The position numbers and the translations under genes are program-made. DNA of 64,000 nucleotides from Chitinophaga pinensis. Its GTDB lineage: Bacteria; Bacteroidota; Bacteroidia; Chitinophagales; Chitinophagaceae. The notes beneath the pieces are model-generated. The model saw only the letters and a list, made by a program, of their open reading frames with translations. It was not told the origin of the DNA and ran no database searches. Shown here piece after piece: positions 1-64,000 of the stretch (position 1 is the first letter of the stretch; every line of letters begins with the position of its first letter). Location: contig CAMAXV010000005.1 in the NCBI GenBank assembly GCA_945862385.1, forward strand, positions 98,202 to 162,201, read 5' to 3'.

Positions 1-54
1 AAAGTTTTCATAAAAAAGTATTTGAAGGTAAAAGTAGATAAAATCGATAAAAAG

Positions 55-783: not shown

Positions 784-2042
784 GCTGCCAGTTTTTTCAG
801 CGCTTTCACAAATTTGTCGAGTTCTTCAACTGTAGTATAAACGTTGGGTGTAATCCTGCAACCAAAAACATTGGCCCCATCGATTGCTACAGTAAAAATG
901 CTGTGTTCTTCCAGCAGTCTTTTTGCCAGGTCGCCCGGTTTGATTCCTTCAATACCCACATTGGCGATACCGCAGCTTCTCGCTGGGTCTGCCGGGGTAT
1001 TCAGGATGATCCGGGGTGTATTCCTGACACGGCAAGTCCAGTACTGCTGCAGGAACCGCAGACGCGCTTCTTTTCGTTCTGCCCCAATCATGTTGTAATA
1101 ATCGATGGAATCAGCAATGGTTAGGTCAGTATGGGCAGGATGCGTTCCGGTATGGCTGATGCGGAGAATCTTGTTAGGGTCTTTTTCCCATCCAACAATA
1201 AGTGGCCACAGTTCGGGCATCCGTTTTTGGTTAACATAAAGTAAGCCGGCACCCAGTGGTGTACTCAGCCATTTGTGAAGCGAACTCCCGTAATAGTCGC
1301 AGTTGAGGTCTGAAATTTTGTATTGAAAATGTGCGATGGCATGGGCTCCATCCACCAAAACCTCCACGCCTTTTCGGTGTGCCATATCACATATTTTCCG
1401 GATGGGTAGTATTTGTCCAGTTATATTGATGATATGTGATACCAGGATCAGTTTTGTTTTTGGTGTGATGGCGTTTTCATAGAGTGAAACGATTTCCTCA
1501 TCCGATTGCGGGTGGTTGGGGACAGACACCATCCTGTTGACCACGCCGTAGCGGTTTGCCACATGCCGCATGGCTTCAATCATAGAACCATAATCCTGTT
1601 CTGCCATGATGGTTTCATCACCTGCCTGCCAGTGTTTTCCGGTGATTACAATATCCATCGATTCGGTGGTGTTGCGGGTGATTGCGAGCTCTTTTGGTGA
1701 ACAGCCTGCCAGTTGCGAAAGTTTCTCCACAACACGTTTTTTATTGTCAACAGCGTTGTTGCGCATGTACCAGGATCCGTGGTAGTTCACATGACGCACA
1801 TGCCCAATAAATTTTTCCAGCAACGATTCCGGTATGAAATTATAGTATCCGTTCTCCAGGTTGATATAGTCTGGTTTGAGCAGGTACTGAGACCTGATGG
1901 AAGACCAGAAAGCCTCATCCTGAGCAAGTGTGATGCTGTCGGTTGATTTCCTGCTGTCAAATAATGCAGCCAAAGCATCCATGCCGAAGGAGGTGCCTGC
2001 TGCTGAAAGCGCGGCAGATTTGATGAATGTTCTTTTGTCCAT
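780..2042 (-). CDS. Class V aminotransferase, exported (isopenicillin N epimerase-like)
   Basis: A 420-residue PLP-dependent fold-type I protein of the class V aminotransferase / cysteine desulfurase / isopenicillin N epimerase group. The motif DGAHAIAHF carries the PLP-ring Asp, and SSLHKWLSTPLGAG carries the Schiff-base Lys. The N terminus (KRTFIKSAALSAAG) looks like a Tat-type signal, with KR in place of RR, so the enzyme is probably exported. The substrate cannot be read from sequence. The gene precedes the alkD-like gene with a 4-base overlap, and a minus-strand terminator lies just upstream, separating it from the yceI pair. Confidence 0.85.
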   Translation of the reverse strand: MDKRTFIKSAALSAAGTSFGMDALAALFDSRKSTDSITLAQDEAFWSSIRSQYLLKPDYINLENGYYNFIPESLLEKFIGHVRHVNYHGSWYMRNNAVDNKKRVVEKLSQLAGCSPKELAITRNTTESMDIVITGKHWQAGDETIMAEQDYGSMIEAMRHVANRYGVVNRMVSVPNHPQSDEEIVSLYENAITPKTKLILVSHIINITGQILPIRKICDMAHRKGVEVLVDGAHAIAHFQYKISDLNCDYYGSSLHKWLSTPLGAGLLYVNQKRMPELWPLIVGWEKDPNKILRISHTGTHPAHTDLTIADSIDYYNMIGAERKEARLRFLQQYWTCRVRNTPRIILNTPADPARSCGIANVGIEGIKPGDLAKRLLEEHSIFTVAIDGANVFGCRITPNVYTTVEELDKFVKALKKLAA

Positions 2043-2068
2043 ACTTTAAATATAGATCAATATGGCAT

Positions 2069-2100
2069 AAAAAAGCCGTCCCTGTTAAACGAGACGGCTT
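2069..2100 (-). terminator. Rho-independent terminator after yceI
   Basis: Read on the minus strand, an 8-bp stem AAGCCGTC/GACGGCTT is followed by a T-run (the A-run at 2069-2074 on the plus strand). It sits about 110 bases beyond the stop of the yceI-like gene and before the aminotransferase start, so it should end the yceI transcript. Confidence 0.75.
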
Positions 2101-2124
2101 GTATAATAAGATTTATTTTTGATT

Positions 2125-2189
2125 CCCCTCCTGGCCAGGAGGGGTGGATCCAGACCGAGCAAAGCGAGTGTCTGGAGACGGGGTGGTGG
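2125..2189. repeat. Partial copy of the GC-rich palindromic intergenic element
   Basis: It begins with the perfect palindrome CCCCTCCTGGCCAGGAGGGG (2125-2144). An inverted pair CCAGAC/GTCTGG (2150-2155, 2170-2175) follows, and then ACGGGGTGGTGG. The same modules recur at 41170-41377, 50553-50582 and 54996-55176. Here only one half of the composite element is present, downstream of the yceI-like gene. Confidence 0.8.
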
Positions 2190-2208
2190 TTATTATTCGT
2201 GCTTCACA

Positions 2209-2733
2209 TCAGTAAAAAACCTCAAATTTCACCTTTACTTCATTGTCAACTGGCTTGAGCATGAAGGAAGGGCGTTCGATTTTAAAATCCTCCAGGAGGA
2301 ATATGAAATTACCTGTGACCTGTGTGGTACCATTCATGTTTTTTGTAGTTGCCTTAAAGGTTGTTTCCTTGTTAACACCATGAAACTGTAAAACTCCTTT
2401 TACATCCAGCGAGCCGTCTTTGCCCGCAGTGATGGAAGTGCTGTAAAAACTGATGTTGGGGAACTTGAGTGCTTCCACTACTTCCAGCAGGTGGGCATCG
2501 CGGTTCGAGCTTTTGGAATCGAAGGCGCTTACTTTGGAAACGATAGCAACTTTTTCGATACTGCCATCAGCCTTTAGCTGAACGGCACCATTGAGGTCTG
2601 CTGAAGTACCATCCCATGCATGCAGCAGGTGATTCATGCTGTAAGTGATGGTTGATTTTTTCCTGTCCACCGGCTTTTTGGTTTGTGCCAGCAGAAATCC
2701 AGGAGACAGTAAGAGTAAAAAAAGTATACGCAT
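2209..2733 (-). CDS. YceI family periplasmic protein
   Basis: A 174-residue secreted protein with an N-terminal signal peptide ending FLLAQ. The rest fits the YceI lipocalin-like beta-barrel, with the typical phrases AFDSKSSNRDAHLLEV and LKFPNISFYST and the later GVLQFHGVNKET. YceI proteins bind polyisoprenoid or other lipophilic molecules in the periplasm. The gene is 3 bases downstream of a small His-rich membrane protein, which recalls the yceJ-yceI pairing of enterobacteria. A terminator lies at 2069-2100. The specific ligand is unknown. Confidence 0.88.
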   Translation of the reverse strand: MRILFLLLLSPGFLLAQTKKPVDRKKSTITYSMNHLLHAWDGTSADLNGAVQLKADGSIEKVAIVSKVSAFDSKSSNRDAHLLEVVEALKFPNISFYSTSITAGKDGSLDVKGVLQFHGVNKETTFKATTKNMNGTTQVTGNFIFLLEDFKIERPSFMLKPVDNEVKVKFEVFY

Positions 2734-2736
2734 GGT

Positions 2737-3360
2737 TTAAAATTTAATGGTGATAACGGCAGCGGCATAGCTGGCAAATGTGGTGAAAGCTGCAGCACGG
2801 TGCCATTTTTTTAATCTGGTATACTGGTCTCCCTGGGCATCTTCAAGGGATTGAGCAAGTATGTTGGTGCCAATCATACCACCCATATGCACAACAGCAA
2901 GCCATTTATGCAGCCTGATGGCAGATAGTTTTTTATCTCTGTTAATCAAAGGTGGAGGCGTAAATAATGACATGATAGCAGTGGCAGAATAGGTTGTATT
3001 TACTGCAACGGCGAGCCCTTCGTGAATGTCTCCAACCCTTCCTGAACCTTTATAGAGTTGTGTACCTGTAATTCCCTGTCCAACCATACCACCCAGTGTA
3101 ACAAATCCCAGCACCTGGTGTGCTACCAGCATCCCCCTTCTCAATTTCAGTTCCTTTTCACGGTTGGTTGGTGTGAGTGGTGAAAAGGGACGCATCAATC
3201 CTTTTTCACCCCAGAAAACACGCTGGGTTAACAGCATTTTTTTGGGTAAGAGTTCTGTTGTGGTATCCTGTTCCTTCATCAGGTCATTCAGCAGATCGTC
3301 CTGCGCAAAGGAGAGGGTTGTCATGCTGATGCATAAAAAAACTGCAATGATTTTTTTCAT
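2737..3360 (-). CDS. Cytochrome b561-like four-helix membrane protein
   Basis: A 207-residue protein with a signal peptide ending FAQ, a soluble stretch of about 70 residues, and then four hydrophobic segments. Histidines sit at the helix ends or within helices: LVAHQVLGF, DIHEGLAVA, RLHKWLAVVHMGG and KWHRAAAF. Paired helix histidines are what a b-type haem membrane protein needs, so a b561-like electron-transfer role is a reasonable inference, though not proven. It sits immediately upstream of yceI in the same operon, which supports a joint role in lipophilic electron-carrier metabolism. Confidence 0.6.
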   Translation of the reverse strand: MKKIIAVFLCISMTTLSFAQDDLLNDLMKEQDTTTELLPKKMLLTQRVFWGEKGLMRPFSPLTPTNREKELKLRRGMLVAHQVLGFVTLGGMVGQGITGTQLYKGSGRVGDIHEGLAVAVNTTYSATAIMSLFTPPPLINRDKKLSAIRLHKWLAVVHMGGMIGTNILAQSLEDAQGDQYTRLKKWHRAAAFTTFASYAAAVITIKF

Positions 3361-3495
3361 GAGTAAGAGTTAAGTTGCAAAGATAGTGAGTTGGCGGATT
3401 GTCAAACTTCGGTATAACGATTTGGTAACCTCAAATATTGTCAGTTTTGGGTTACCTGAAGGATAAAGCCGTATTAACGTATAAATCGTACATAT

Positions 3496-3786
3496 ATGTT
3501 GCAGAAAACCTATTACAAAACAAAGGATTATTGTAAAGTAAAGTTCAGTTTCAAGCCTGAATTGGCTGAAACTGTTGAAATTCTTGGTTTGAACAGTGAT
3601 TGGGAAAATGCGGTTATTATGGCTAAGAAAAAGGATGGCAGCTTCAGTGCAGAAGTAAATCTGCCAAAAGATTCAAGTCATGAATTCAAATACCTGGTTG
3701 ATAATGCAACCTGGGTGAATGATCCGGAGGCTGATACTGAAGTTCCCAACGTCTTTGGTGGAAGTAACAGTGTAGTTAGTATTTAA
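3496..3786 (+). CDS. Small glycogen-binding (CBM48/isoamylase early-set) protein
   Basis: A 96-residue cytoplasmic protein consisting of a single Ig-like early-set domain of the AMPK-beta/isoamylase N-terminal type. The visible features are VKFSFKPELAETVEILGLNSDWENAV, the conserved Trp, and HEFKYLVDNATWVNDPEAD, where Tyr, Trp and DPEAD are family hallmarks. Such free-standing domains are common in Bacteroidota and are presumed to bind alpha-glucans. It has no enzymatic domain. The gene stands alone between the yceI operon (opposite strand) and corA. Confidence 0.8.
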   Translation: MLQKTYYKTKDYCKVKFSFKPELAETVEILGLNSDWENAVIMAKKKDGSFSAEVNLPKDSSHEFKYLVDNATWVNDPEADTEVPNVFGGSNSVVSI

Positions 3787-3872
3787 TCTTTCAGGTTAAA
3801 TTACCATAATTTACGTTTTGATTTAAACTGCATCATGGTGGTGCCGTAAATTGAAACCTGTTAACCCCAAGT

Positions 3873-4772
3873 TTGACCCTCAAAGAAATTAACGCGCCTC
3901 AAGGTCAGTTTAAGTGGCTGGACATCACTGCTCCAACCATTGAAGAGCTTATGTCTGTAAGTGAAAAGTACAATCTCAACAACCATAACCTGAGGGATTG
4001 TCTGGAGCCTGATCATCTGCCCAAATTTGAAGAGGGAGACGACTTTAATTTCATTATCCTGCGCAAGGTTTTGGAGGATGGTGAGCCGGGAACAACCATT
4101 CATTCTCTCACTACGAAAATTGCTATTTTTTACAACGAAAGTGTAATAGTTACCATTCACCGTCTCCCTCAGGAAGACCTCATCACGATTTGTGAGCAGT
4201 CTATTCAGCATGGCAGGGTAACCCATATTCAGCAACTTTTGCTCAAGATCATTGCAAGGGTCCAGCACAGTTATACCAGTTTTGCCGGCCACCTGAATGC
4301 ACAGATTGAGGCATTCGAAACAAGGTTGTTTGTCCGCAAAACAGCCAGGGAGTCCATAGAAAACCTGTATATGTTGAAGAGGCGTACAGGTTTATGCCGG
4401 AGGTTGTTATTGCTGAGTGGAGAGGTAGTTAATGCCGTGCAGCACCGCCAGAAAAAATCAAGTGAGCTCCAGGATATACGCGACAGCCAGGCTAAACTGC
4501 AGCTGTTTTATGAACAGCTGAGTGAAGATGCCATCAACCTGGTAAGTACCTATATGTCTTACAGTGCCCAGAAAACCAATGAGGTTATGAAGGTGCTGAC
4601 TATCTTTTCAGCTTATTTTCTGCCGCTTACGTTCATAGTTGGTGTATACGGTATGAATTTCGACCTGATGCCTGAATTACGCTGGAAATATGGTTATCCG
4701 GCGATACTATTGGTTATGTTTCTTGTTTTTCTGGTCATCTATCTTTGGTTCAGGCGACGCAAGTGGCTTTGA
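3873..4772 (+). CDS. corA: CorA family divalent cation (Mg2+/Co2+) channel
   Basis: A 299-residue CorA-type channel subunit, with a long cytoplasmic helical N-terminal domain and two C-terminal membrane helices. The signature GMN is at residues 260-262 in YGMNFDLMPEL, between the helices, and the C terminus is basic (RRRKWL), as in the family. The start is unusual. An in-frame TGA at 3852 leaves TTG at 3873 as the best start, because homology (FKWLDITAPTIEEL) begins before the first internal ATG at 3951. No Shine-Dalgarno site is evident. Family assignment is firm; Mg2+ as substrate is inferred. Confidence 0.9.
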   Translation: MTLKEINAPQGQFKWLDITAPTIEELMSVSEKYNLNNHNLRDCLEPDHLPKFEEGDDFNFIILRKVLEDGEPGTTIHSLTTKIAIFYNESVIVTIHRLPQEDLITICEQSIQHGRVTHIQQLLLKIIARVQHSYTSFAGHLNAQIEAFETRLFVRKTARESIENLYMLKRRTGLCRRLLLLSGEVVNAVQHRQKKSSELQDIRDSQAKLQLFYEQLSEDAINLVSTYMSYSAQKTNEVMKVLTIFSAYFLPLTFIVGVYGMNFDLMPELRWKYGYPAILLVMFLVFLVIYLWFRRRKWL

Positions 4773-4886
4773 CGTTGTCTAAGTAAACAACAACTTTTCT
4801 CGTACATTAACACGTAATTCGGCATTTTTTTCGGAAATTTGCATTCCCGTTGAAATTATTCAACCCTTTATAACAACAGTTGAAAA

Positions 4887-6293
4887 ATGAGCAGTAAACC
4901 TACCAGTCTATTTGATAAAGTTTGGGATGCACACGTTGTGCGCAGTATTGCGGATGGTCCGGATGTATTGTTAATCGACCGCCATTTCATCCATGAAGTG
5001 ACCAGTCCGGTTGCTTTTCTCGGACTCAAAACCAGGAATCTGGGTGTCATGTTTCCGGACCGTACTTTTGCCACTGCAGATCACAATACCCCAACCATCA
5101 ACCAGCACCTGCCTGTTGCTGATCCATTGTCTGCCAATCAGCTGAAGGCGCTTGAAGAAAATACTTCGAGCTATGGTATTTCCCACTGGGGTCTTGGCAA
5201 TCCCAAAAATGGTATTGTGCATGTGGTTGGTCCGGAAAACGGGATAACCCTGCCGGGTATGACTATTGTTTGTGGAGACTCCCATACATCTACGCATGGT
5301 GCGTTCGGATGTATTGCTTTTGGCATCGGAACTTCTGAAGTGGAGATGGTACTTTCTTCACAATGTATCATGCAGCCCAAAGCGAAGAAGATGCGTATAA
5401 ATGTTAATGGCAACATGAGCAAGGGTGTTACCCCCAAAGATGTTGTGCTTTATATCATCTCTAAGCTTACAGCGGCAGGAGCAACAGGTTACTTTGTTGA
5501 GTATGCCGGATCGGTTTTCGAAAATATGTCGATGGAAGGCCGCATGACTGTCTGCAACATGAGTATTGAAATGGGTGCAAGGGGTGGCATGATTGCTCCC
5601 GACGAAACCACGTTCAATTACATCAAAGGTCGTGAAAAGGCTCCCAAAGGTCAGGCTTGGGACGATGCAGTTGCATACTGGAAAACGCTGAAAACAGATG
5701 AGGGCGTAGTATTTGACAAGGAATATAATTTTGACGGAGCAGATATTGAACCCATGATTACCTATGGTACCAATCCAGGTATGGGTATGGGTATTTCTCA
5801 GCTGATACCAACGGCAGCCGATATAGATGCCGGCAAGGCCAGCTTTGCCAAGTCTTTGCAGTATATGGGATTCACTGAAAGTGAGCCCATGCTGGGCAAG
5901 AAAATTGATTATGTGTTCATTGGAAGTTGTACCAATGGCAGGATTGAGGATTTCAGGGCCTTTGCTTCTGTGGTGAAGGGAAGAAAGAAAGCAGACCATG
6001 TAACAGCCTGGATTGTACCTGGCTCTCATGTGGTGGAAGCACAGATCAGGGAGGAAGGTATTTATGATATTCTCATTGAGGCAGGGTTTGAACTCCGGCA
6101 GCCCGGTTGCTCAGCTTGCCTGGCTATGAATGACGACAAAATTCCTGCTGGAAAATATGCCGTTAGCACCAGCAACAGAAACTTTGAAGGACGTCAGGGT
6201 CCGGGTGCCAGAACACTCCTTGCCAGTCCACTTGTTGCTGCTGCAGCCGCAGTTACTGGCATCGTTACTGATCCAAGAACCCTGATCGCTTAA
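4887..6293 (+). CDS. leuC: 3-isopropylmalate dehydratase large subunit
   Basis: A 468-residue aconitase-family subunit that carries the [4Fe-4S] cluster of isopropylmalate isomerase. The cluster cysteines are visible as C348 (IGSCTNGR), C408 and C411 ([10 protein letters not shown]). [12 protein letters not shown] and the CSTSNRNF-like [22 protein letters not shown] are also present. The enzyme interconverts 2- and 3-isopropylmalate, and also citramalate and methylmalate where that pathway exists. It is the first gene of a tight cluster, with leuD 11 bases downstream. The length matches typical LeuC. Confidence 0.97.
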
Positions 6294-6304
6294 AAAAAAC
6301 AACC

Positions 6305-6901
6305 ATGGCTTACGATAAATTTACAGTATTGACCAGCTCGGCAGTGCCTCTGCCAATTGAAAATGTGGATACCGACCAGATTATCCCCGCTCGATTCCTG
6401 AAAGCAACCAAGCGTGAGGGCTTTGGAGACAACCTGTTTCGCGACTGGCGTTATAATGGTGATGATACACCCAAGCAGGATTTCGTGCTTAATAATGCCA
6501 TCTACAGTGGAAAAATTCTGGTAGGTGGAAAGAATTTCGGCAGCGGAAGCAGTCGTGAACACGCAGCATGGGCAATCTACGATTATGGATTCCGTTGTGT
6601 TGTTTCCAGCTTTTTTGCGGATATCTTCAAGAACAATTCCTTGAATATCGGCATCCTGCCGGTTCAGGTTTCTGAAGACTTTCTGGACAGGATTTTCAAA
6701 GCCATTGAAGCTGATCCGCAGACACAGCTCGAAGTTGATTTATCAAAGCAAACAATTACGATACTGTCTACTGGAGACAGTGAGTCTTTTGATATCAATT
6801 CCTACAAAAAGCACAACCTGATGAACGGCTTTGATGATATTGATTACCTGCAGGCCATGAAAGAAGAGATTTCCACCTTCGCACAAAACAGCCGCTACTA
6901 G
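6305..6901 (+). CDS. leuD: 3-isopropylmalate dehydratase small subunit
   Basis: A 198-residue swivel-domain subunit that pairs with LeuC. The sequence shows [14 protein letters not shown] near residue 19 and the substrate-recognition loop [14 protein letters not shown] near residue 80, both diagnostic. It follows leuC by 11 bases and precedes the LeuA-family synthase by 25 bases, so one transcript is likely. The length is standard for bacterial LeuD. Confidence 0.97.
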
Positions 6902-6926
6902 ACGATGGTCCAGGCGCATTAACCCC

Positions 6927-8450
6927 ATGCCAAAATCAACCCGTTATATTGAGATCATGGACACCACCCTGCGGGATGGTGAACAAACCAGTGGTGTTTC
7001 TTTTTCTGCCTCTGAGAAACTTACCATAGCCCAGATCCTGCTTACAGAGGTAAAAGTAGACAGGATTGAAGTGGCTTCCGCCAGGGTTTCAGATGGTGAA
7101 TTTGAAGCCGTCAAAAAAATCACCCGTTGGGCCAAATCAAAGGGACTGTTGAAGAAAATTGAAGTCCTCACCTTTGTGGATGGTGAGGTTTCCATAGACT
7201 GGATGACGAAGGCCGGAGCAAAGGTCATGAACCTGCTTACAAAGGGTTCCCTCAATCACCTGAAGCACCAGCTGAAAAAAACACCTGAACAGCATTTTGC
7301 TGAAATAGCGGCAGTTTTTTCGCTCGCTAAGAAGAAAGGTATAGAATGTAATGTTTACCTGGAAGACTGGAGCAACGGCATGCGGAACTCCCCGGAATAT
7401 GTTTTTCAGTACCTGGATTTCCTGGCAACGCAGCCTGTTAAAAGAATCATGTTACCCGACACACTGGGTATTCTCAAGCCGGAAGAAGTAGCTGATTTCA
7501 TTAGACAAATCATCCCCCGCTATCCCGGCATTCATTTTGATTTCCATGGGCATAACGACTATGATCTTGGAACGGCAAATGTACTGGAGGCAGTAAAAGC
7601 CGGTGTTCAAGGTATCCACCTTACAGTGAACGGTATGGGAGAACGTGCAGGTAATGCACCCCTGGCCAGTGCGGTTGCGGTGATACATGATTTTATGCCT
7701 TCTCTCAAAACAGGTGTAGTTGAAGAATCCCTCTATCAGGTCAGCCGGCTTGTAGAAACCTTCTCAGGTTTTCGCATACCGGTAAATAAACCTGTTGTGG
7801 GTGAAAATGTATTTACGCAGACTGCCGGAATACATGCCGATGGCGATAAGAAAAACAACCTGTATTACAACGACCTGATGCCGGAAAGATTCGGCAGGAA
7901 ACGCTCCTATGCCCTGGGTAAAACCAGCGGTAAGTCGAACATCGAAAATAACCTCGCTCAGCTGGGAATTGAGTTGTCTGATGCGGATCTCAAAAAAGTT
8001 ACTCAGCGGATCATCGAGCTGGGTGATAAAAAGGAAGTGGTTACACAGTCTGATCTTCCCTATATCCTTTCTGATGTGCTCGACAGCGATGCCATTGGCG
8101 ATAATGTGGAGTTTATCAACTATGTACTGACGCATTCAAAAGACCTCAGACCTTCAGTGACACTGCAGGTTCAGATTGCTGATGAAGTTTTTGAAGAACA
8201 CGCACAGGGTGATGGACAGTATGATGCATTCATGAATGCATTGCGTTCCATTTATAAAAAGAAAAAACTCCAGCTGCCTATGCTTACTGATTATGCAGTA
8301 CGCATACCTCCGGGCGGAAAGAGTGATGCACTTTGTGAAACCATCATCACCTGGGATTATAAAGGGAGAGAATTTAAAACACGTGGACTGGATAGCGATC
8401 AGACAGTTGCAGCCATCAAGGCTACGCAGAAGATGCTGAATTTGTTATAG
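6927..8450 (+). CDS. LeuA-family synthase, probable (R)-citramalate synthase
   Basis: A 507-residue enzyme with an HMGL-like TIM barrel (about 1-270), a linker, and a C-terminal LeuA-type regulatory domain (about 370-505, with the phrase RIPPGGKSDAL). The catalytic signature DTTLRDGEQTSGVSF is at residues 12-26. Metal ligands H207 and H209 lie in HGHNDYDL, followed by NGMGERAGNAPL. Phrases such as VDRIEVASARVS, NVYLEDWSNGMRNSP and FGRKRSYALGK resemble my memory of Leptospira CimA more than classical LeuA. It may therefore condense pyruvate with acetyl-CoA to feed isoleucine synthesis, though 2-isopropylmalate synthase remains possible. It lies between leuD and leuB. Confidence 0.8.
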   Translation: MPKSTRYIEIMDTTLRDGEQTSGVSFSASEKLTIAQILLTEVKVDRIEVASARVSDGEFEAVKKITRWAKSKGLLKKIEVLTFVDGEVSIDWMTKAGAKVMNLLTKGSLNHLKHQLKKTPEQHFAEIAAVFSLAKKKGIECNVYLEDWSNGMRNSPEYVFQYLDFLATQPVKRIMLPDTLGILKPEEVADFIRQIIPRYPGIHFDFHGHNDYDLGTANVLEAVKAGVQGIHLTVNGMGERAGNAPLASAVAVIHDFMPSLKTGVVEESLYQVSRLVETFSGFRIPVNKPVVGENVFTQTAGIHADGDKKNNLYYNDLMPERFGRKRSYALGKTSGKSNIENNLAQLGIELSDADLKKVTQRIIELGDKKEVVTQSDLPYILSDVLDSDAIGDNVEFINYVLTHSKDLRPSVTLQVQIADEVFEEHAQGDGQYDAFMNALRSIYKKKKLQLPMLTDYAVRIPPGGKSDALCETIITWDYKGREFKTRGLDSDQTVAAIKATQKMLNLL

Positions 8451-8454
8451 TGGG

Positions 8455-8549
8455 AGTTGAGGGAGATAAGTTGAGAGAGATAAGTTGAGGGAGATAAGTT
8501 GAGAGAGAGAGAAGTTGAGAGAGAGGAGTTGAGGGAGATAAGTTGAGAG
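8455..8549. repeat. 14-bp purine-rich tandem repeat
   Basis: About 6.5 tandem units of AGTTGAG(G/A)GAGATA, one of them expanded to 16 bases by an extra GA, fill almost all of the 115-base gap between the LeuA-family gene and leuB. A shorter array of the same unit occurs at 58266-58289, again just after a stop codon. The plus strand is nearly all purine plus T. No palindrome or coding potential was seen. Confidence 0.9.
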
Positions 8550-55326: not shown

Positions 55327-58248
55327 ATGCAAGACAAGCTGAAACAATTATCTAAAAGTCTGGAAGGACAATTGTACACCGATAAGACGATGCGCACCCT
55401 TTATGCCACCGATGCGTCGGCTTACCGGGAGATGCCGCTGGCGGTGGCCATTCCGAAGACGAAGGAGGATATTGTAAGCCTGATCAGGTTTGCCCGTGAA
55501 AACGGGACTTCCCTCATTCCGCGGACAGCCGGCACTTCGCTGGCCGGACAGGTTGTAGGTCATGGCATTGTGGTAGATGTGTCGAAACACTTTACAAAAA
55601 TCCTCGAACTCAACAAGGAAGAAGGCTGGGTGCGGGTAGAGCCAGGGGTGGTTCGGGATGAATTGAATCTTTTTCTTAAACCACACGGATTGTTTTTTGG
55701 TCCGGAGACCTCCACTGCCAACCGCGCCATGATTGGCGGGATGGTAGGCAACAATTCTTGCGGATCCAACTCTGTGGTGTACAAAAGCACCCGCGAGCAC
55801 CTGCTGGAAGTAAATGCCTTCCTCAGTGACGGGTCGGAGGTGATGTTCCAGGCACTCAGTCTGGATGAGTTTCACACCAAATGTGAGCTTGGTACCCTGG
55901 AGGGGAATATTTACAAAACTATCCGCTCACTGCTGGGTAATTACGATAATCAGGAAGAGATACGCAGGGAGTTTCCCAAGAAAAGCGTGGAGCGCAGGAA
56001 TACCGGTTATGCCGTTGATCTGCTGGTAGAGATGGCACCCTTCACCGCAGGCGGACCAGATTTCAATTTCTGTTCACTCATAGCAGGATCTGAAGGTACG
56101 CTTGCCTTCATCACTGAAATCAAGTTGCACGTCAATGCCGCTCCGCCCAAAGAGACAGGATTGTTGTGCGCGCATTTCAACAGCATTGATGAGTCGCTTC
56201 GCGCCAACCTGATCGGATTGAAATACAGGCCCAGTGCCAGCGAACTCATGGATCATTATATTTTGGAATGCACCAAAGGAAATATTGAGCAAAGCAAGAA
56301 CAGGTTCTTTGTGCAGGGTGATCCCGGTGCCATTTTGGTAATAGAGTTTCAGAAGGAGACCCGTGAAGAGATTCTGGCTATCACGCAACAGGTGGAAGCA
56401 GAGATGCGTGCTGCCGGATTGGGTTATCATTTCCCGGTGTTGTTTGGAGCGGATACCAAGAAGATCTGGACTCTGCGCAAGGCCGGACTCGGATTGCTCA
56501 GCAACCTCCCAGGAGATGAGAAGGCTGTGCCGGTGATTGAAGATACAGCAGTGGATGTGGAAGACCTTCCGGCTTATATCGCGGAGTTTAACGAGATCCT
56601 GAAGAAGCATGGATTGTATTCCGTGCATTATGCCCATGCCGGTTCCGGTGAATTGCACCTGAGGCCCATCATCAATCTGAAGACAGAAGAAGGTAACAGG
56701 TTGTTTCGGGTGATAGCAGAAGAAGTAGCCACACTGGTGAAGAAATACAGGGGATCGTTGAGTGGAGAGCATGGCGACGGAAGACTCCGTGGAGAGTTCA
56801 TCCAGCAGATGGTTGGTGAAAAGAATTACAGGTTGTTGAAAGAAGTGAAGAACGTGTGGGATCCGCAACATATTTTCAATCCCAACAAGATTGTGGATAC
56901 TCCTCCCATGAACAGCATGTTGCGGTATGTACCCGGACAATTCACGCCGGCGTTCAAAACGATTTTCAGGTTTCACCAGCAAGACATTTTGCAGCATGCA
57001 GAGCAATGCAATGGCAGTGGAGATTGCAGAAAGAGTCATCTTTCCGGAGGTACTATGTGTCCCAGTTACATGGCAACAAGAAACGAAAAAGATACCACCA
57101 GGGCCAGGGCTAATATTCTTCGTGAGTTTCTGACCAACAGCGACAAGCAGAACCGCTATGATCACAAGGAGATATACGAGGTGATGAGTCTGTGCCTCAG
57201 TTGCAAGGCCTGTAAGAGTGAATGTCCGTCTAACGTAGACATGGCCAAGCTCAAAGCTGAATTTTTGCAGCATTATTACGATGCCAATGGTGTACCCTTC
57301 AGAAGCAGGCTTATAGCCAATTTCACTGCTACAGCTAAGCTCGGATCCATTGCGCCAGGGTTGTACAATTGGGTGATGGACAATCCCCTCCTCGGCGGAA
57401 TGATCAAACGGATGTCTGGTTTTGCGGTTGAACGCAGCATGCCTCATTTGTCGAAACAGACCTTACGCAGTTGGTATGCGAAACACAGGCATGTGCAGGA
57501 TTTGAAGCAGTATGCAAGAGAAGTGCATCTCTTTTGTGATGAGTTCACCAATTACAATGATGCCCATATTGGTATTAGAAGTATTCAGTTACTCAATGCG
57601 CTAGGGTATGCTGTTCGCATGGTAGAACATGAAGAGAGCGGCAGGACCTGGTTGTCGAAAGGACTCGTTAGAAAAGCCAAGCAGATTGCCAACAAGAACA
57701 TTGGGATATTTGCTCCGATTATCAGTGCAGCTCAACCACTCATTGGCATTGAACCCTCGGCGATACTGACTTTCAGGGATGAGTATCCTGAGCTTGCGGA
57801 TGATGACCAGCTTGATGCAGCCCAGCGACTCGCACAGCAGAGTTTTTATATCGATGAATTTTTAAGCAGAGAGATGGAGCGCGGACACATCCGCAAAGAC
57901 CAGTTCAAAATTGCAACACGGAAGATTATTTTCCATGGCCATTGCCAGCAGAAGTCGGTTGGAGATGCAGGCGCTACTGTGAAGGTCTTGTCGTTTCCCG
58001 AAGGACATACTGTTGAAACCATACCATCCGGCTGTTGCGGTATGGCAGGGTCTTTTGGGTATGAGAAAGAGCACTATGATGTGTCTATGCAGATAGGAGA
58101 GCTGGTGTTGTTGCCCAAAGTGCGCCAGCACCAGGGACAATGCACTGTTGCAGCTCCCGGAACCAGTTGCCGCCATCAGATAAAAGACGGAACAGGCGAG
58201 AAAGCACTTCATCCCGTGGAGATTTTGTGGGAGGCGGTTAGGGTGTAA
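55327..58248 (+). CDS. FAD-linked oxidase fused to a Fe-S (GlcF-like) domain
   Basis: A 973-residue fusion of a D-lactate/glycolate-type FAD oxidase (FAD-binding ETSTANRAMIGGMVGNNSCG, barrel end HAGSGELHLRP, LSGEHGDGRLRGEF) to a ferredoxin-like domain with CLSCKACKSECPSNVDMAK and a further Cys set in GTMCPSYMATR. Two C-terminal CCG segments (HGHCQQKS; SGCCGMAGSFGYEKEHYDVS; APGTSCRHQI) follow. It probably oxidises a 2-hydroxyacid such as D-lactate, feeding electrons to the quinone pool. The ATG at 55327 fits; upstream sequence is repeat-flank. A short tandem repeat follows the stop. Confidence 0.92.
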   Translation: MQDKLKQLSKSLEGQLYTDKTMRTLYATDASAYREMPLAVAIPKTKEDIVSLIRFARENGTSLIPRTAGTSLAGQVVGHGIVVDVSKHFTKILELNKEEGWVRVEPGVVRDELNLFLKPHGLFFGPETSTANRAMIGGMVGNNSCGSNSVVYKSTREHLLEVNAFLSDGSEVMFQALSLDEFHTKCELGTLEGNIYKTIRSLLGNYDNQEEIRREFPKKSVERRNTGYAVDLLVEMAPFTAGGPDFNFCSLIAGSEGTLAFITEIKLHVNAAPPKETGLLCAHFNSIDESLRANLIGLKYRPSASELMDHYILECTKGNIEQSKNRFFVQGDPGAILVIEFQKETREEILAITQQVEAEMRAAGLGYHFPVLFGADTKKIWTLRKAGLGLLSNLPGDEKAVPVIEDTAVDVEDLPAYIAEFNEILKKHGLYSVHYAHAGSGELHLRPIINLKTEEGNRLFRVIAEEVATLVKKYRGSLSGEHGDGRLRGEFIQQMVGEKNYRLLKEVKNVWDPQHIFNPNKIVDTPPMNSMLRYVPGQFTPAFKTIFRFHQQDILQHAEQCNGSGDCRKSHLSGGTMCPSYMATRNEKDTTRARANILREFLTNSDKQNRYDHKEIYEVMSLCLSCKACKSECPSNVDMAKLKAEFLQHYYDANGVPFRSRLIANFTATAKLGSIAPGLYNWVMDNPLLGGMIKRMSGFAVERSMPHLSKQTLRSWYAKHRHVQDLKQYAREVHLFCDEFTNYNDAHIGIRSIQLLNALGYAVRMVEHEESGRTWLSKGLVRKAKQIANKNIGIFAPIISAAQPLIGIEPSAILTFRDEYPELADDDQLDAAQRLAQQSFYIDEFLSREMERGHIRKDQFKIATRKIIFHGHCQQKSVGDAGATVKVLSFPEGHTVETIPSGCCGMAGSFGYEKEHYDVSMQIGELVLLPKVRQHQGQCTVAAPGTSCRHQIKDGTGEKALHPVEILWEAVRV

Positions 58249-58265
58249 GAGAGGACAAGGGGGAA

Positions 58266-58289
58266 AGTTGAGAGAGATAAGTTGAGAGA
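58266..58289. repeat. Second, short copy of the 14-bp tandem repeat
   Basis: About 1.7 units of AGTTGAGAGAGATA directly downstream of the FAD/Fe-S oxidoreductase stop codon, matching the array at 8455-8549. Both copies follow a gene end on the same strand. Confidence 0.8.
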
Positions 58290-58375
58290 ATAAATTATTT
58301 ACTGCCAAGGGGTGGCCCAAGTCTAAATTTTTTTAAATCATGATTTACAAAAGGCCTTTTGCAGAATGACTTTTA

Positions 58376-58774
58376 CTAAAACTCCTCAGCCATCATTTTC
58401 ACTTCATCAACAGAAATTGAATATTTTTCTGCAATTTCTTTGTGTGAGAGTAAACCATTTTTCAATTCTTTATTGATGGCGATGGATAATTGTAAACCCT
58501 CCAAACGGCCTTGTTTGAAGCTATCCATCACTTCTGTATTCCTACAACGGATATGATCCATATACGCATCATAGGTATATTGTTGTCCGGGTGTGAGTTT
58601 GGATTCATCTAAAATGATGGCTGCCTTGCGTAGGTTGGGATAATTACTTTTCAGTTCCATGGGCAGATGTTTGAAATAGTCTGGTTCAGCGAAGAACCTA
58701 ATCCATTGATGAAGTCGATTATTTATATCAAATTTACTACATTTCATGAATTTTTGTACTTCCAGAATAATCAT
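58376..58774 (-). pseudogene. C-terminal remnant of an Rpn/PD-(D/E)XK transposase-like gene
   Basis: The 132-residue frame has the C-terminal features of Rpn family nuclease/putative transposase proteins: RLHQWIRFFAEPDYF, LRKAAIILDESKLTPGQQYTYDAYMDHIRCR, KQGRLEGLQLSIAINKELKNGLLSHKEIAEKYSISVDEV. The nuclease core (D...ExK) that should precede it is missing, and no upstream minus-strand sequence supplies it. This looks like the tail of a decayed mobile-type gene left at the edge of the defence locus. It could still be expressed as a short protein. Confidence 0.65.
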
Positions 58775-59133
58775 GCTGACAGTTACTCAACCTAAAAAAA
58801 GTTTACAGGTTTAATCATCAATTCAAATTGTTAAAATCCTTCCATGGCTTTCACTCCTCCAATAGGTGGAGGTGTGGCTTACTACCTTGCTTACCTAACC
58901 AAACCAAATTTTATGCAAATTGTAGAATTAACCTTGAATCACCTGAACCTGTATTGTCCGGTAACGGGACAAGTGGGCAAGCCTATAACATAGTATAAAT
59001 TATTTTAATATGTTCTGTGTGTTACGGCCGGTGCAAATGCTACCGGTCGTAATTCTGTTTACTTAAACAGGGAATTGTTTAAATTTGAAGACCTGACCAT
59101 TGTCAATCATCCACCAAACTATCGTGCTAAAGC
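58775..59133. other. Gene-poor junction before the BREX locus
   Basis: 359 bases without a convincing gene. It holds the hairpin CCTCC/GGAGG around AATAGGT (58857-58873). A 26-codon frame at 58913-58993 on the plus strand (MQIVELTLNHLNLYC...) may be a remnant. A 9-bp stem ACGGCCGGT/ACCGGTCGT (59024-59032, 59042-59050) has one G-T pair and no T-run. No BREX regulator gene (WYL or HTH) was seen here. The stretch marks the boundary between chromosomal genes and the defence locus. Confidence 0.55.
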
Positions 59134-59892
59134 GTGAAAATTGATTCCTCATTGAATATATTGGGCAGTCTGCCCGACTGGAACCTGGTCACTCTTTTCC
59201 TGAATGCCAGTATCGGGTCAATGAAGAAATCAGGTGGTATCCATACCTATACTGCCATCAAAACAGACAAGTCTGTCATGCGTTTTGAAAAGGCGATCAC
59301 AGGTACATTAATCAGGTTTAAAAATGCGGATGTGGAAACGCTGATGCGTGATGTGCTCAACCAGGAACAAATTACGCACAATAGTCTTTTGCTGTTGTTC
59401 TGGAATGCTTCCAGTAACAATGAATTATTGCATTATCTGAATACGCATCTGTTTTTCCCGGCTTTTTACAGCGGAAGGATTTCCATCAAAAAAAATGAAG
59501 TGGCTGCCTGCATCCGTGATTTAAAAGCGCGCGAAAGCGATCTCAAAAAATGGTCTGATTCAACCATTGAAGTAACAGCCTCCAAATACCTGACGCTGCT
59601 AAAGAAATTTAACTTAATGGAGGGTGAACTGAACAAGACCATCATTCATCCTTACCTGAATGATCAGCTGTTTGTTATGTTTGTTTACTGGTTAAAATCC
59701 ATTTCACCAAAGCCTAACCTCCTAGATTCGGAGTGGATAATATACTGCTTTTCTGAACGAACAGTATTCATGGAGCGATTGATGCAAAAAAAATATACCC
59801 GCTATTTTCACCTCAACTTTACCGGTGACAAGCTGACCATTGAAACCATTCTTCCCTATTCAACCCTATACGATGCCCTTACAAAATCCTGA
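59134..59892 (+). CDS. brxA: BREX protein BrxA
   Basis: A 252-residue protein of the BrxA (DUF1819) family, a small NusB-like DNA-binding component of BREX phage defence. The phrases LPDWNLVTLFLNASI, RFEKAITGTLIRFKNAD, LLLLFWNASSNNELLHYLNTHLFFPAFYSGR and TVFMERLMQKKYTRYF are of that family. The start is GTG at 59134; an in-frame TAA ends the frame just upstream. The gene overlaps brxB by 20 bases and precedes brxC, the canonical BREX order, which strongly supports the call. Confidence 0.9.
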   Translation: MKIDSSLNILGSLPDWNLVTLFLNASIGSMKKSGGIHTYTAIKTDKSVMRFEKAITGTLIRFKNADVETLMRDVLNQEQITHNSLLLLFWNASSNNELLHYLNTHLFFPAFYSGRISIKKNEVAACIRDLKARESDLKKWSDSTIEVTASKYLTLLKKFNLMEGELNKTIIHPYLNDQLFVMFVYWLKSISPKPNLLDSEWIIYCFSERTVFMERLMQKKYTRYFHLNFTGDKLTIETILPYSTLYDALTKS

Positions 59893-60430
59893 ACATATCA
59901 TTCTTTCTGCCAAGCGGTTGGTGGAATCCGACAGGCGTTCAGAAATCAGGCTGAATGCCAATGGTGGTAATTCAATCCTGGTGGTCTGTGAACCGATGCG
60001 TGAACTGGAGTATATAGAACAGATGCGCCAACTACTTCCTGCTGATGGGTTTGAACTGATCGATCTGAATCAGACGCTCACCGATTTTATTGCTCAACAC
60101 AAGACGGAATTGCTACAACTTTTCGAGTTCCTGCAATCGGCTACACATGAAATTTTCAAGGCTCCCGCAGGGGAGGAATCCAATGACCTTTTTAAAGAGA
60201 TTCTAAACAAAATCAGCCGCGCCGTTGATAGCGGTAAAGTGCCGGTACTGATTCATACAGGAGCACTTTATGGAACAGGCATCCACAACATCCATATCAT
60301 GGAGGACGAGGCGGTGATGAAAGCTGCTCTGCCCCTGATTATCCTTTATCCGGCTACCACCGAGCCGGATAAGATTTTATTCCTGGGCAAATATCCCTCC
60401 TCCAAGTACCGTTGTATGATCATTCAATAA
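59873..60430 (+). CDS. brxB: BREX protein BrxB
   Basis: A 185-residue protein of the BrxB (DUF1788) family. NGGNSILVVCEPMRELEYIEQMRQLLPADGFELIDLNQ is followed by KVPVLIHTGALYGTGIHNIHIMED and PLIILYPATTEPDKILFLGKYPSSKYRCMII. It is an essential BREX component of unknown biochemistry. The ATG at 59873 overlaps the end of brxA by 20 bases; a longer TTG start reads into brxA sequence and is unlikely. It is followed by brxC 16 bases later. Confidence 0.9.
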   Translation: MPLQNPEHIILSAKRLVESDRRSEIRLNANGGNSILVVCEPMRELEYIEQMRQLLPADGFELIDLNQTLTDFIAQHKTELLQLFEFLQSATHEIFKAPAGEESNDLFKEILNKISRAVDSGKVPVLIHTGALYGTGIHNIHIMEDEAVMKAALPLIILYPATTEPDKILFLGKYPSSKYRCMIIQ

Positions 60431-60446
60431 TGCAGAAAACACACAC

Positions 60447-63400
60447 ATGCTGATAAAGGATTTATTAACCATCGATTTGAGTGAAGACATCAAAAATGTC
60501 ATCGACCTTGAAGACATTTCAGAAGCTGCCATACAGGCTGAAATTGAAAGCTATATCATCACAGATGGTCTGGCCAGGGAATACAGTGACTTCGTGTCCG
60601 TTTATACTTCCAACATCATTGAAACGGGTGTTTGGTTGTCTGGTTTTTATGGTTCGGGTAAGTCGTATTTCGGAAAGCTGCTGGGCTACATGATGAGCAA
60701 CCGCATCATCAACGGAACACCTGCTCGAGACAGGATCCTGCAGCGGTTTACGGGTATCGATGATGAATCGCTGGTGAAAAATGTCATTTCAAGACTGAAC
60801 AGCATCCATTCTCGTGTGGTACTGATGGATGTTGCCCGTCAGGATACATCCAATGGCTTTGCCTATGCCCTTTTCCGCAACTTTCTCAAATCACTGGAGC
60901 TACCGGAAAATGAACATGGCTTCCTGCTCTTCTCGCTCATGTGTGATTCAGGGTATGGCAGTATTGTTGATTTCTTTCAAGATAAATCTGGCCTTAACTG
61001 GGCTGATTTTAAGTATAACAGAACAATCTATTTCATCAAGATCAAGGAGCTGTTTCTCTCCCTTGGGAACTCGGAAGCGGATTATACCAATATCATGTCT
61101 ACCATCAGAAGGGAGATTGATGAATTTGATTCGGCTAAGTTAAAACAGGAACTAACCAATTATTTTGAGGTTGTAAAGGATGAAAAAATCGTTTTCCTTT
61201 TTGATGAAGCCAGCGAAGCCATCAATCAGGGTAAGTTCACCCTGCTGGACCTGCAGGGGCTTAGTGAATCGCTATCATCGCTGGGAGGGAAGGTTTGGAC
61301 TATTGCTATTGCACAGGAAAAGCTGGACGATGTCATCAACAACTCCAACATCAACCGGGCGCAGCTGACAAAAGTTACCGACCGCTTTAAAACCAAGATT
61401 CACCTGGAAGCAACGGAAGTGGATGTGATCATCAGGAGCAGGTTACTGAAGAAAAAAGACACGGCCATCCACCTGCTGAATGAGCACTACCAGCAACATT
61501 CTGGTAAGATTGCCGACCACAGTGGACTGTCAGGTGCAGCTAAAACAGAAACGGTAGATTCTTATATCACCTACTATCCGTTTTACAAGAACCAGTTCAC
61601 GCTTTTACAGAATTTTCTGTTCGGGCGGCAGGGTTATGCCTCCACAAAGGTTGCCGCCAGGGGCATGATCATCACGGCTTACGATATCCTGAAGCATGAA
61701 ATCCAGCATGAAAAGCTGTTCAGCATCGCCACCGGTTGGCAGATTGCGAAAGAAGCGCAGCCACAACCTCCGGTAAGATTGGTGAACCGATTTGCCAATG
61801 CGGAATTGATATTACAAAATGAGCACATCGATTTGCCTGGCCGTCACCTAATGGAAACCATTCATTTTCTCACGGAAGCGGAAATAGCTCCTGCCACGCT
61901 GAGTAATATTGTTAAGTCGTTTATTAAGTCGCCTGACGATTTCCATACCTCACAGGCTTCCATAGCCAAAGCCCTTGATGCCCTGGTGGAGCAGAAGGTA
62001 TTGCTATTAACCAACGGCACCTACCGCATCACCACGGATATTGAACAGCGGTTGCTGGATGAAATGAATCAATTTCAGGTACAGACATTCCGTAAAAAAC
62101 AACTGATTATTTCCGCTTACAAAAATGCAGCGCTTGTCAGGTCGCTGGCCAGGATTCAGGATAACAATGTGCAATATGATTTTTACATCACGTCAGACAA
62201 TGATGATGAACTGACAAATCCGGCCATCAAGCAGTTGAAGCTGAAAGTGAAGAGCATCTACAGTTATGACAACGATCGTGTTCCACAGATTGAACAACTG
62301 AAGACCCAATATCAAAACAACAAGGATGTTATCTGGCTGGCACCTGAAGGTAAATATTTTAGGGAGATTGACAGACTGTTGGATGATGTGGAGCGCATCA
62401 AATACCTGGAAGAAAAATATGCCAATCCACAGTCAGATGAAGGAGCCATTGTGCGTGCCTTTCAGGCAGAACGTTCGGTTAAGGAGAACCGGCTGAAGGA
62501 GTTGGTGGAGCAATCCCTCATCGAAAGCACTTCTATTTATTTGTACAATACAGCACAGTTAGACAGGAATAACTGGCAATCTCATCTGAATGGATTGCAG
62601 CGTCAGGTCATTCAAAATGTATACAGCCAGCGCCTTTCAGCCCAGCTATCTGATGCCATTGCAGAACGAATAATCAGAGAAGCCAATAACCAGCGCTTGC
62701 ATACCTTCTTTACCGGACAAGGACCGGATTTTCAGTTTTTTGATGCGCAGGGAAATTTTGTGGGAGAAAACCTCAAGCCGGCTGAACAGATCCTTTATAA
62801 AGTCAGGAACAGTTTTGTAGATGGCGCCACGCTTGAAAAAGACCTTGAACAACCACCCACCGGTTTTGGATTTGGTACTGTCATTACTACCGTAGCTGCA
62901 TTGATGCGGGGTAATAAGCTGATGGCTAAACACAATGGCGCAGACAAGTTCAGCTGGAAAGACGAGGGCGTAGCAACGATTTTCAGCAATGCCCGTGAGT
63001 TCAGGAGGGCCTCCTTTAAAGCCATTGCCCGATCCTTGCGCACAGATCAGAAGAACAGTTTGGTCACTGCACTTCAGGAGCTGGATTGCGAAACGCATAC
63101 CGGTAAAAAGATTGACTGGAACACCAATGATTACGATCTGGTGACATCCATTCGTGATCTTGCGAAACGCTTCTGTGAAAAGGTAGATGACATGAAGCGG
63201 CAGCAAAGGGATTTTGATGCACTCTTCAATTATCTTGAAACTTCAAAAGATTTGCTCGGATCTTTTACCGGTGCTGTTAGTGAGGCAAATTATATCGATA
63301 GGGCTGAAAATTTTCTGACACAAACCACTGTCTATGCCAATGCCATAAGTGAGATTGTTAAGGCGGAAAAATTCATCCGCAACAATCTGGATAAAGTGCG

Positions 63401-64000
63401 TCAATGGAAAACGTTTACAGATGGTGTTACAGATGAATTGACTAAAGCGGCAACCAACCATCCGGAAATCATTCAACTCATTGAAGCGTTTGGAAGCTTG
63501 TACGTGGCAGGAATCGTGACCAATTTCAGACCCCTGCAGGATAAAGCCCAGCAGGTGAAAGATGCCTATTACAACCTAATGACAGTGGCCGCCACAGAAA
63601 TGTCTGGTCGCTACAAGCTGCTGTATCAGGAAGCCTTGGCGCTTCAACAGGAGATCGATACACTTCCACCCGGATTGAATGTAGATGCAGCTGCAAAAAC
63701 AGGCAATATCGTCAGTTATGCGCAACAGCGCACTTCCGGCGCGGTAGACATTGATTATGATGTGCGTGATAAACAAACAAGGTTTACTTACTCTGAAATT
63801 CTCTCGTTCATTGAGTTGTTCAGCAGCCGGAAAACAGCACTCGACATCATTCGAAATGGCTTGGTCCGCAATCCGCCACCTGTACCTGATCCCAGCGAGC
63901 CTGAACCACCCAAAGCCAAAAAATATGTGGCAGCATTGCCCGGCCGGCAGCTTAAAGTGCATGTCTATAAATACTGGCTGCAGCAGGAATTGCAAAAACT
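60447..64000 (+). CDS. brxC: BREX ATPase BrxC, 3' end outside window
   Basis: An open frame of 1184 codons from the ATG at 60447 to the window edge. The P-loop GFYGSGKS is at 66-73, and a Walker B-like FLFDEASEA has D253 and E254. A long, charged helical C-terminal half follows (e.g. APEGKYFREIDRLLDDVERI). This fits BrxC/PglY AAA-type ATPases of about 1200 residues, so only a short tail should be missing. BrxC is required for BREX defence and methylation. I checked the frame at several points and found it open. pglX, pglZ and brxL are expected beyond 64000. Confidence 0.9.
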   Translation, partial: MLIKDLLTIDLSEDIKNVIDLEDISEAAIQAEIESYIITDGLAREYSDFVSVYTSNIIETGVWLSGFYGSGKSYFGKLLGYMMSNRIINGTPARDRILQRFTGIDDESLVKNVISRLNSIHSRVVLMDVARQDTSNGFAYALFRNFLKSLELPENEHGFLLFSLMCDSGYGSIVDFFQDKSGLNWADFKYNRTIYFIKIKELFLSLGNSEADYTNIMSTIRREIDEFDSAKLKQELTNYFEVVKDEKIVFLFDEASEAINQGKFTLLDLQGLSESLSSLGGKVWTIAIAQEKLDDVINNSNINRAQLTKVTDRFKTKIHLEATEVDVIIRSRLLKKKDTAIHLLNEHYQQHSGKIADHSGLSGAAKTETVDSYITYYPFYKNQFTLLQNFLFGRQGYASTKVAARGMIITAYDILKHEIQHEKLFSIATGWQIAKEAQPQPPVRLVNRFANAELILQNEHIDLPGRHLMETIHFLTEAEIAPATLSNIVKSFIKSPDDFHTSQASIAKALDALVEQKVLLLTNGTYRITTDIEQRLLDEMNQFQVQTFRKKQLIISAYKNAALVRSLARIQDNNVQYDFYITSDNDDELTNPAIKQLKLKVKSIYSYDNDRVPQIEQLKTQYQNNKDVIWLAPEGKYFREIDRLLDDVERIKYLEEKYANPQSDEGAIVRAFQAERSVKENRLKELVEQSLIESTSIYLYNTAQLDRNNWQSHLNGLQRQVIQNVYSQRLSAQLSDAIAERIIREANNQRLHTFFTGQGPDFQFFDAQGNFVGENLKPAEQILYKVRNSFVDGATLEKDLEQPPTGFGFGTVITTVAALMRGNKLMAKHNGADKFSWKDEGVATIFSNAREFRRASFKAIARSLRTDQKNSLVTALQELDCETHTGKKIDWNTNDYDLVTSIRDLAKRFCEKVDDMKRQQRDFDALFNYLETSKDLLGSFTGAVSEANYIDRAENFLTQTTVYANAISEIVKAEKFIRNNLDKVRQWKTFTDGVTDELTKAATNHPEIIQLIEAFGSLYVAGIVTNFRPLQDKAQQVKDAYYNLMTVAATEMSGRYKLLYQEALALQQEIDTLPPGLNVDAAAKTGNIVSYAQQRTSGAVDIDYDVRDKQTRFTYSEILSFIELFSSRKTALDIIRNGLVRNPPPVPDPSEPEPPKAKKYVAALPGRQLKVHVYKYWLQQELQK

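Follow-up and report, generated by a model that had tools for sequence, protein, structure and literature searches.

A probable BREX operon with the six type-1 genes, divided between two contigs of a Chitinophaga pinensis genome assembly

The closest described relatives of the locus reported here are the type-1 bacteriophage exclusion (BREX) systems. Classical type-1 loci, represented in this study by those of Acinetobacter (L074), a Klebsiella plasmid (L075), Ligilactobacillus (L077) and Mesobacillus (L078), carry the genes brxA-brxB-brxC-pglX-pglZ-brxL, and the available part of PMC12839542 describes type-1 BrxL as having a C-terminal Lon-like or HKD domain. The same gene content, in the same order within each contig, was found in Chitinophaga pinensis, divided between the right edge of a 64,000-nucleotide stretch of assembly GCA_945862385.1 (the window; contig C5, positions 98202-162201) and a short contig of the same genome, C63. 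The genes of the two contigs very probably constitute one six-gene BREX operon of type-1 content.

The nearest locus that could be read whole was that of Mucilaginibacter segetis SD-g (L020, NZ_JAEHFW010000002.1), which holds an intact brxA-brxB-brxC-pglX-pglZ-brxL set and hits the same PADLOC models as the Chitinophaga locus. Identities between the two were 59% for BrxA, 68% for BrxB, 74% for BrxC, 73% for the PglX tail, 67% for PglZ and 91% for BrxL. The Mucilaginibacter pglX is intact, whereas the Chitinophaga genome has no assembled pglX body; its product passes the NCBI model of the BREX-1 methyltransferase (NF033452; 579 bits, cut-off 500) and holds the NPPY motif. The Chitinophaga genes are as follows, with coordinates given in the window for C5.

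59134..59892, plus strand: brxA, 252 amino acids (aa), GTG start (PADLOC PDLC02458; Pfam BrxA, PF08849)
59873..60430, plus strand: brxB, 185 aa, ATG start (PADLOC PDLC02470)
60447..64000 (codons to 63998), plus strand: brxC, first 1184 codons, with no stop before C5 ends (PADLOC PDLC02493; NCBIfam NF033441)
C63, minus strand: pglX tail, last 97 codons (PADLOC)
C63, minus strand: pglZ, whole, 748 aa (PADLOC)
C63, minus strand: brxL, 640 codons, lacking its end (PADLOC)

The preliminary description of the window had assigned the three edge genes, by order and family, to brxA, brxB and brxC, and this was borne out by three nearly full-length PADLOC matches. The brxA product matched PDLC02458 with an expectation value (E) of 4.8e-74, spanning residues 1-250; the brxB product matched PDLC02470 at E 5.8e-67, and the brxC product matched PDLC02493 at E 0 with 1626.6 bits. 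The genes were also said to be overlapping or closely spaced on the plus strand, which agrees with an overlap of 20 nucleotides between brxA and brxB and a gap of 16 nucleotides between brxB and brxC. The profile checks proposed in that description were answered positively for BrxA in Pfam (PF08849; 30.3 bits, cut-off 23) and for BrxC in NCBIfam, where NF033441 was just passed (413 bits, cut-off 400), but not for BrxB, which had no match in Pfam, DUF1788 included, or in NCBIfam and was recognized by PADLOC alone. That both collections missed BrxB hints at a divergent lineage. The brxA product had no NCBIfam match and the brxC product no Pfam match. The brxB frame mechanically begins at TTG 59840; ATG 59873 was chosen, and the protein from this start aligns to the PADLOC model from residue 1.

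Beyond the window, pglX, pglZ and brxL had been predicted, and extension to the right had been suggested as the check. C5 is 162,201 bases long and thus ends with the window, but a BREX family search of the contigs found the pglX 3' end, pglZ and a Lon-like brxL, in this order, on the minus strand of C63 (4,467 bp); all six genes stand together in L020. Since the contig ends do not overlap, we inferred the join from the complementary gene content, the consistent PADLOC model sets and the gene junctions. In C63 as in L020, pglX and pglZ overlap by 7 nucleotides; at brxA/brxB, brxB-brxC and pglZ-brxL, the spacing in the two genomes differs by 1-3 nucleotides. In a genome-wide search, BrxC, the PglX tail, BREX-type PglZ and BREX-type BrxL occurred once each. 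A second BrxL match, on C3, covered the Lon-like C-terminal part only, and a second PglZ-domain match, on C23, was judged by eye to be a PorX-like response regulator carrying a PglZ domain. In support of the prediction, type-1 order is kept within each contig, A-B-C on C5 and X-Z-L on C63, and as a whole in L020. All six type-1 components were detected, PglX as its last 97 codons and BrxC and BrxL without their ends, and the BREX superfamily is represented by the BrxC P-loop ATPase in the window together with PglZ on C63.

Several observations weigh against the reading of these genes as one operon of type-1 content. The pglX body (about 1,130 codons, including the methyltransferase part) was found in no contig of the assembly, in which the 97-codon tail alone matched; the last codons of brxC and of brxL were likewise found in no contig, and the last 141 bases of C5 matched no other contig end. 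At the protein level, PglZ fell under every NCBI PglZ subtype cut-off (best score 66.1 bits for type B, cut-off 400; 48.3 bits for NCBIfam BREX-1 type A, cut-off 270.35), and neither PglZ nor BrxA had a match in a sequence search of the PDB at E 0.1. BrxC and PglZ did not nest inside the classical type-1 clade in the trees described below, so that what is known in detail from Acinetobacter, Salmonella and E. coli may not apply to this lineage. The absence of the pglX body from an assembly rated 99.5% complete, with both C5 and C63 stopping at the edges of pglX, could mean that the system is decayed or partly deleted, with pglX disrupted in this strain and neither methylation nor restriction remaining. 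This is improbable, given that every frame present is open and that, besides pglX, the ends of brxC and brxL are missing too. Furthermore, a BrxC record (P0001) identical over all 1184 residues runs to 1197 aa on a contig of 113,274 bp, and a 100%-identical PglZ is recorded on a contig that is at most 13,505 bp long; the gap between brxC and the pglX tail is therefore probably an assembly limit. No inverted repeats of at least 30 bases were found in L020 from the brxC end rightwards, which neither supports nor excludes a pglX inversion as the cause of the gap.

Small contigs are the commonest binning errors, and C63, which is short and joined to C5 by no overlap, could come from another organism or another BREX locus; the Chitinophaga locus would then continue otherwise, perhaps with a helicase replacing BrxL as in a type 5- or 6-like system. 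Such an origin is distinctly improbable in view of the complementary, single-copy gene sets, the junction spacing conserved with L020 and a combined PADLOC model set equal to that of this intact locus. The contamination of the assembly was rated 0, and the G+C content of C63 (45.7%) is close to that of the window (44.5%), a weak criterion since C23 has 42.3%. It is also conceivable that the machine is kept mainly for host methylation or plasmid exclusion without phage restriction, because the available part of PMC13326643 reports type-1 methylation and restriction to be separable and the lineage lies far from those tested systems that were included in the comparison. We regard this as highly improbable: brxL, which according to the part of PMC9122589 at hand is needed in E. 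coli for restriction and not for methylation, is present and encodes the most conserved subunit, and the nuclease metal-site residues of PglZ are kept.

If the six genes form one BREX operon, methylation by PglX is predicted to mark host DNA, and the replication of unmarked phage DNA would be blocked. By homology to studied type-1 systems, PglX would methylate adenine at N6 within a short, non-palindromic site; BrxB, PglZ and BrxC may form a core complex balancing marking and restriction, with BrxA as a putative DNA-binding accessory. BrxL would be a DNA-binding AAA+ ring, driven by ATP and working in restriction, whose Lon-like tail is inactive.

BrxL was identified by profile and sequence matches: TIGR02653 scored 735.8 bits (cut-off 628), Pfam Lon_C scored 35.7 (cut-off 21.1), and PDB entry 8emc was matched at E 4.2e-169. 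BrxL is a component of types 1 and 4, and this protein has the Lon-like C-terminus described for type 1. It was also the most alike component in all 15 pairs formed by the Chitinophaga locus, L020 and four plasmid loci; these six loci, with BrxL whole or nearly so, were chosen through BrxC, and the set is free of the bias of a BrxL list. A larger matched set of 10 database contigs and the Chitinophaga genome gave mean identities over 55 pairs of 75.4% for BrxC, 71.4% for PglZ and 89.2% for BrxL, which was the most alike in 55/55 pairs, its mean difference being under half that of either BrxC or PglZ. The trios of this set were picked by eye, by equal length, from the best 120 of each list, with their same-contig status inferred, and the set is biased, since the BrxL list reached down to 87% identity to the query and the BrxC and PglZ lists to 60%, so that loci with a less similar BrxL could not enter. 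Both sets, including the unbiased 15 pairs, agree in direction.

A recent exchange of brxL was considered as the source of its 91% identity to L020 and was rejected on raw identity at fourfold-degenerate sites, which were as unlike in brxL (27.8% identical) as in brxC (28.8%). In the available parts of PMC12839542 and PMC10164562, no statement that BrxL is the slowest subunit was found, and we make no claim that the observation is unpublished. The uneven subunit rates offer a tangible starting point for asking which partner BrxL contacts and may interest the specialist. Separately, one database protein (P0191), an 862-aa BrxL 90% identical to that of Chitinophaga, is listed with an extra PF18731 domain, which we take to be of HEPN type, and may be an effector fusion.

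When 84,980 species genomes were scanned by pattern, two matches were obtained, a close one in L020 and a remote one in Methylobacterium (28%). Among database records, BrxC proteins closer than that of L020 included P0002 at 90% and P0016, from Ferruginibacter, at 76%. Eight of the best 120 BrxC relatives listed were named by taxon, including metagenome bins of Margulisiibacteriota and Clostridia, both at 62%. The other six (Ferruginibacter, Mucilaginibacter, Lacihabitans, Dyadobacter, Flavitalea and Bacteroidales) we take to be Bacteroidota, and the lineage is mainly of this phylum as far as its members are named. Within the genus, no near BrxC was found in any of the 36 congeners searched, out of 40 available. 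A BrxC match was found in two of 60 genomes including our own, the other being a congener at 25% identity, and 395 genomes of the class, again with our own, gave 10 matches, the others being at most 33% identical over the matched pieces. By these comparisons, the near BrxC is thus patchily distributed in this genus.

The congener locus (L062, in genome G009) has the order brxC-pglX-pglZ-brxL, as predicted for the Chitinophaga pinensis system, but its BrxC is 25% identical over residues 26-377 and sits on a very long branch in the tree. Next after this gene set (G009:C45, 119-12295) comes a DUF4268 gene that also has a sub-cut-off NucS_C match. Viral contigs held no BrxC or PglZ relative in a pattern scan that detects close relatives only. 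Matches numbered 173 among plasmid records and four among phage records, with none above 26.5% identity in the 20 and 4 rows listed, respectively. In a Lactiplantibacillus plasmid (L076, 15230-16853), pglX and pglZ are separated by a transposase and a death-on-curing toxin gene, and the listing, which covers about 1 kb after pglZ, shows no brxL.

The region to the left of the operon holds two further features.

58376..58774, minus strand: Rpn/PDDEXK_2 nuclease-transposase remnant, C-terminal half only, left neighbour outside BREX (TIGR01784, PF12784)
59058..59087, plus strand: possible, weak Bacteroidota-type promoter upstream of brxA (TTTA, 18 nucleotides, TAAATTTG)

The decayed nuclease gene noted in the preliminary description was recovered as such: it scored below both curated cut-offs (TIGR01784, 22.3 bits against 52.1, profile positions 146-271 of 273; PF12784, 20.5 bits against 27.4), and no in-frame N-terminal half lies ahead of the frame. 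It could alternatively be a short stand-alone C-terminal Rpn product. The frame has DNA relatives on C8 (79%) and C27 (73%). The description was also right that the left end has no recognizable regulator, as 58249-59133 contains no plus-strand open reading frame of at least 60 aa. This is not unusual, since BrxR is likewise missing from the type-1 systems of E. coli and B. cereus according to the available part of PMC9122589. The promoter candidate is weak because the -7 motif is not enriched in that stretch (2 found, 4.25 expected by chance). Its form follows the promoter consensus of Bacteroidota.

The proposal that a defence island was inserted beside housekeeping genes drew weak support. 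In its favour, no near BrxC was found in the 36 congeners, and the sequence to the right of the oxidase gene had no match in 29 congener loci; against it, no clean empty site and, among the three flank proteins put to Pfam, no second defence gene were found. These three were a DUF2339 membrane protein, a FAD-linked oxidase (PF02913, PF01565) and one protein without a match, and they are the part of the flank that the search covered. The oxidase was matched in 40 of 41 genus genomes including our own, some matches being only distant paralogues. With window 58001-59200 as the query against 29 congener loci, the matches ended within the oxidase gene, at or before 58242, with the exception of one 21-base match at E 0.15. 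The end of this gene with at least 500 bases beyond it was present in 21 of the 29 loci, and none showed a clean empty site. The comparison fits a variable site and proves no insertion. The genes upstream differ from those of L020, which has RecC-like, UvrD-like and GmrSD_N genes where the Chitinophaga locus has the Rpn remnant and the oxidase gene. These L020 genes (11-8186; RecC-like, UvrD/RecB-like and GmrSD_N) lie on the same strand and are perhaps a second defence unit. Repeats were also noted in the window. Minisatellite units of the AGTTGAGAGA type lie at 58251-58297, with copies on eight contigs, C5 included, and form an array at 8455-8549. At 58781-58826, just left of BREX, about 40 bases recur at 88-91% identity on C14, C1 and C35, a dispersed repeat at the junction.

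The locus adds a well-supported BREX system to a genus with no near relative in the 36 other genomes searched, and its lineage could be used to test which BREX features are universal. Compared with the four classical type-1 loci, BrxL is 43-46% identical, whereas BrxA, BrxB, BrxC and PglZ are only 18-31% identical. Sizes differ as well: classical PglZ has 852-875 aa against 748, which makes the Chitinophaga protein more than 100 residues shorter, and classical BrxA has 198-208 aa against 252. The largest gaps in the PglZ alignment are central and precede the catalytic region, and the predicted fold matches PglZ and PorX. The window BrxC is 22-27% identical to six named plasmid-borne type-1 loci, which are 30-45% identical among themselves.

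In unrooted IQ-TREE trees, BrxC and PglZ of the lineage each had their own long stem, supported at 100/100, apart also from the haloarchaeal loci with brxE. In the first run, the L062 BrxC joined the lineage at 85/83; the second run left out L062, L063, P0071 and P0101 for BrxC and P0282 and P0321 for PglZ. Both runs gave long-branch warnings, which persisted in the second for PglZ and PglX. The BrxL tree came from the first run only, and in the PglX tree, where the lineage is represented by L020 alone, L020 joined the haloarchaeal loci with a long-branch warning. The haloarchaeal systems of Halomarina (L080) and Halobaculum (L082) also have a long BrxA, and their PglZ is named merely "PglZ domain-containing"; they carry brxE, a type-6 marker in the available part of PMC12839542, and their BrxC and PglZ form a clade of their own. 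The Chitinophaga PglZ scored 46.6 bits for PglZ_5 (cut-off 250) and 41.9 for PglZ_6 (cut-off 400), the L020 PglX fell under the BREX-5 and BREX-6 cut-offs, and no brxE or helicase gene was present in the window or the C63 stretches, a scope that excludes the pglX gap and the sequence past C63.

The trees contain no rows of types 2, 3 and 4 and none identified as type 5, and two rows carry brxE; since they are also unrooted, they leave room for a separate subtype without establishing one. We tentatively propose, while holding it rather doubtful, that this mainly Bacteroidota lineage could be a separate BREX subtype of type-1 content that split early, with a short PglZ and a long BrxA, in which BrxL and not the methyltransferase-nuclease core is most tightly selected, as if its partner were one that phages and hosts cannot change. 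The lineage could well be among the 3,464 type-1 taxa mentioned in the available part of PMC12839542. PADLOC already has models for this gene cluster, and the Chitinophaga locus is a known system in a divergent lineage.
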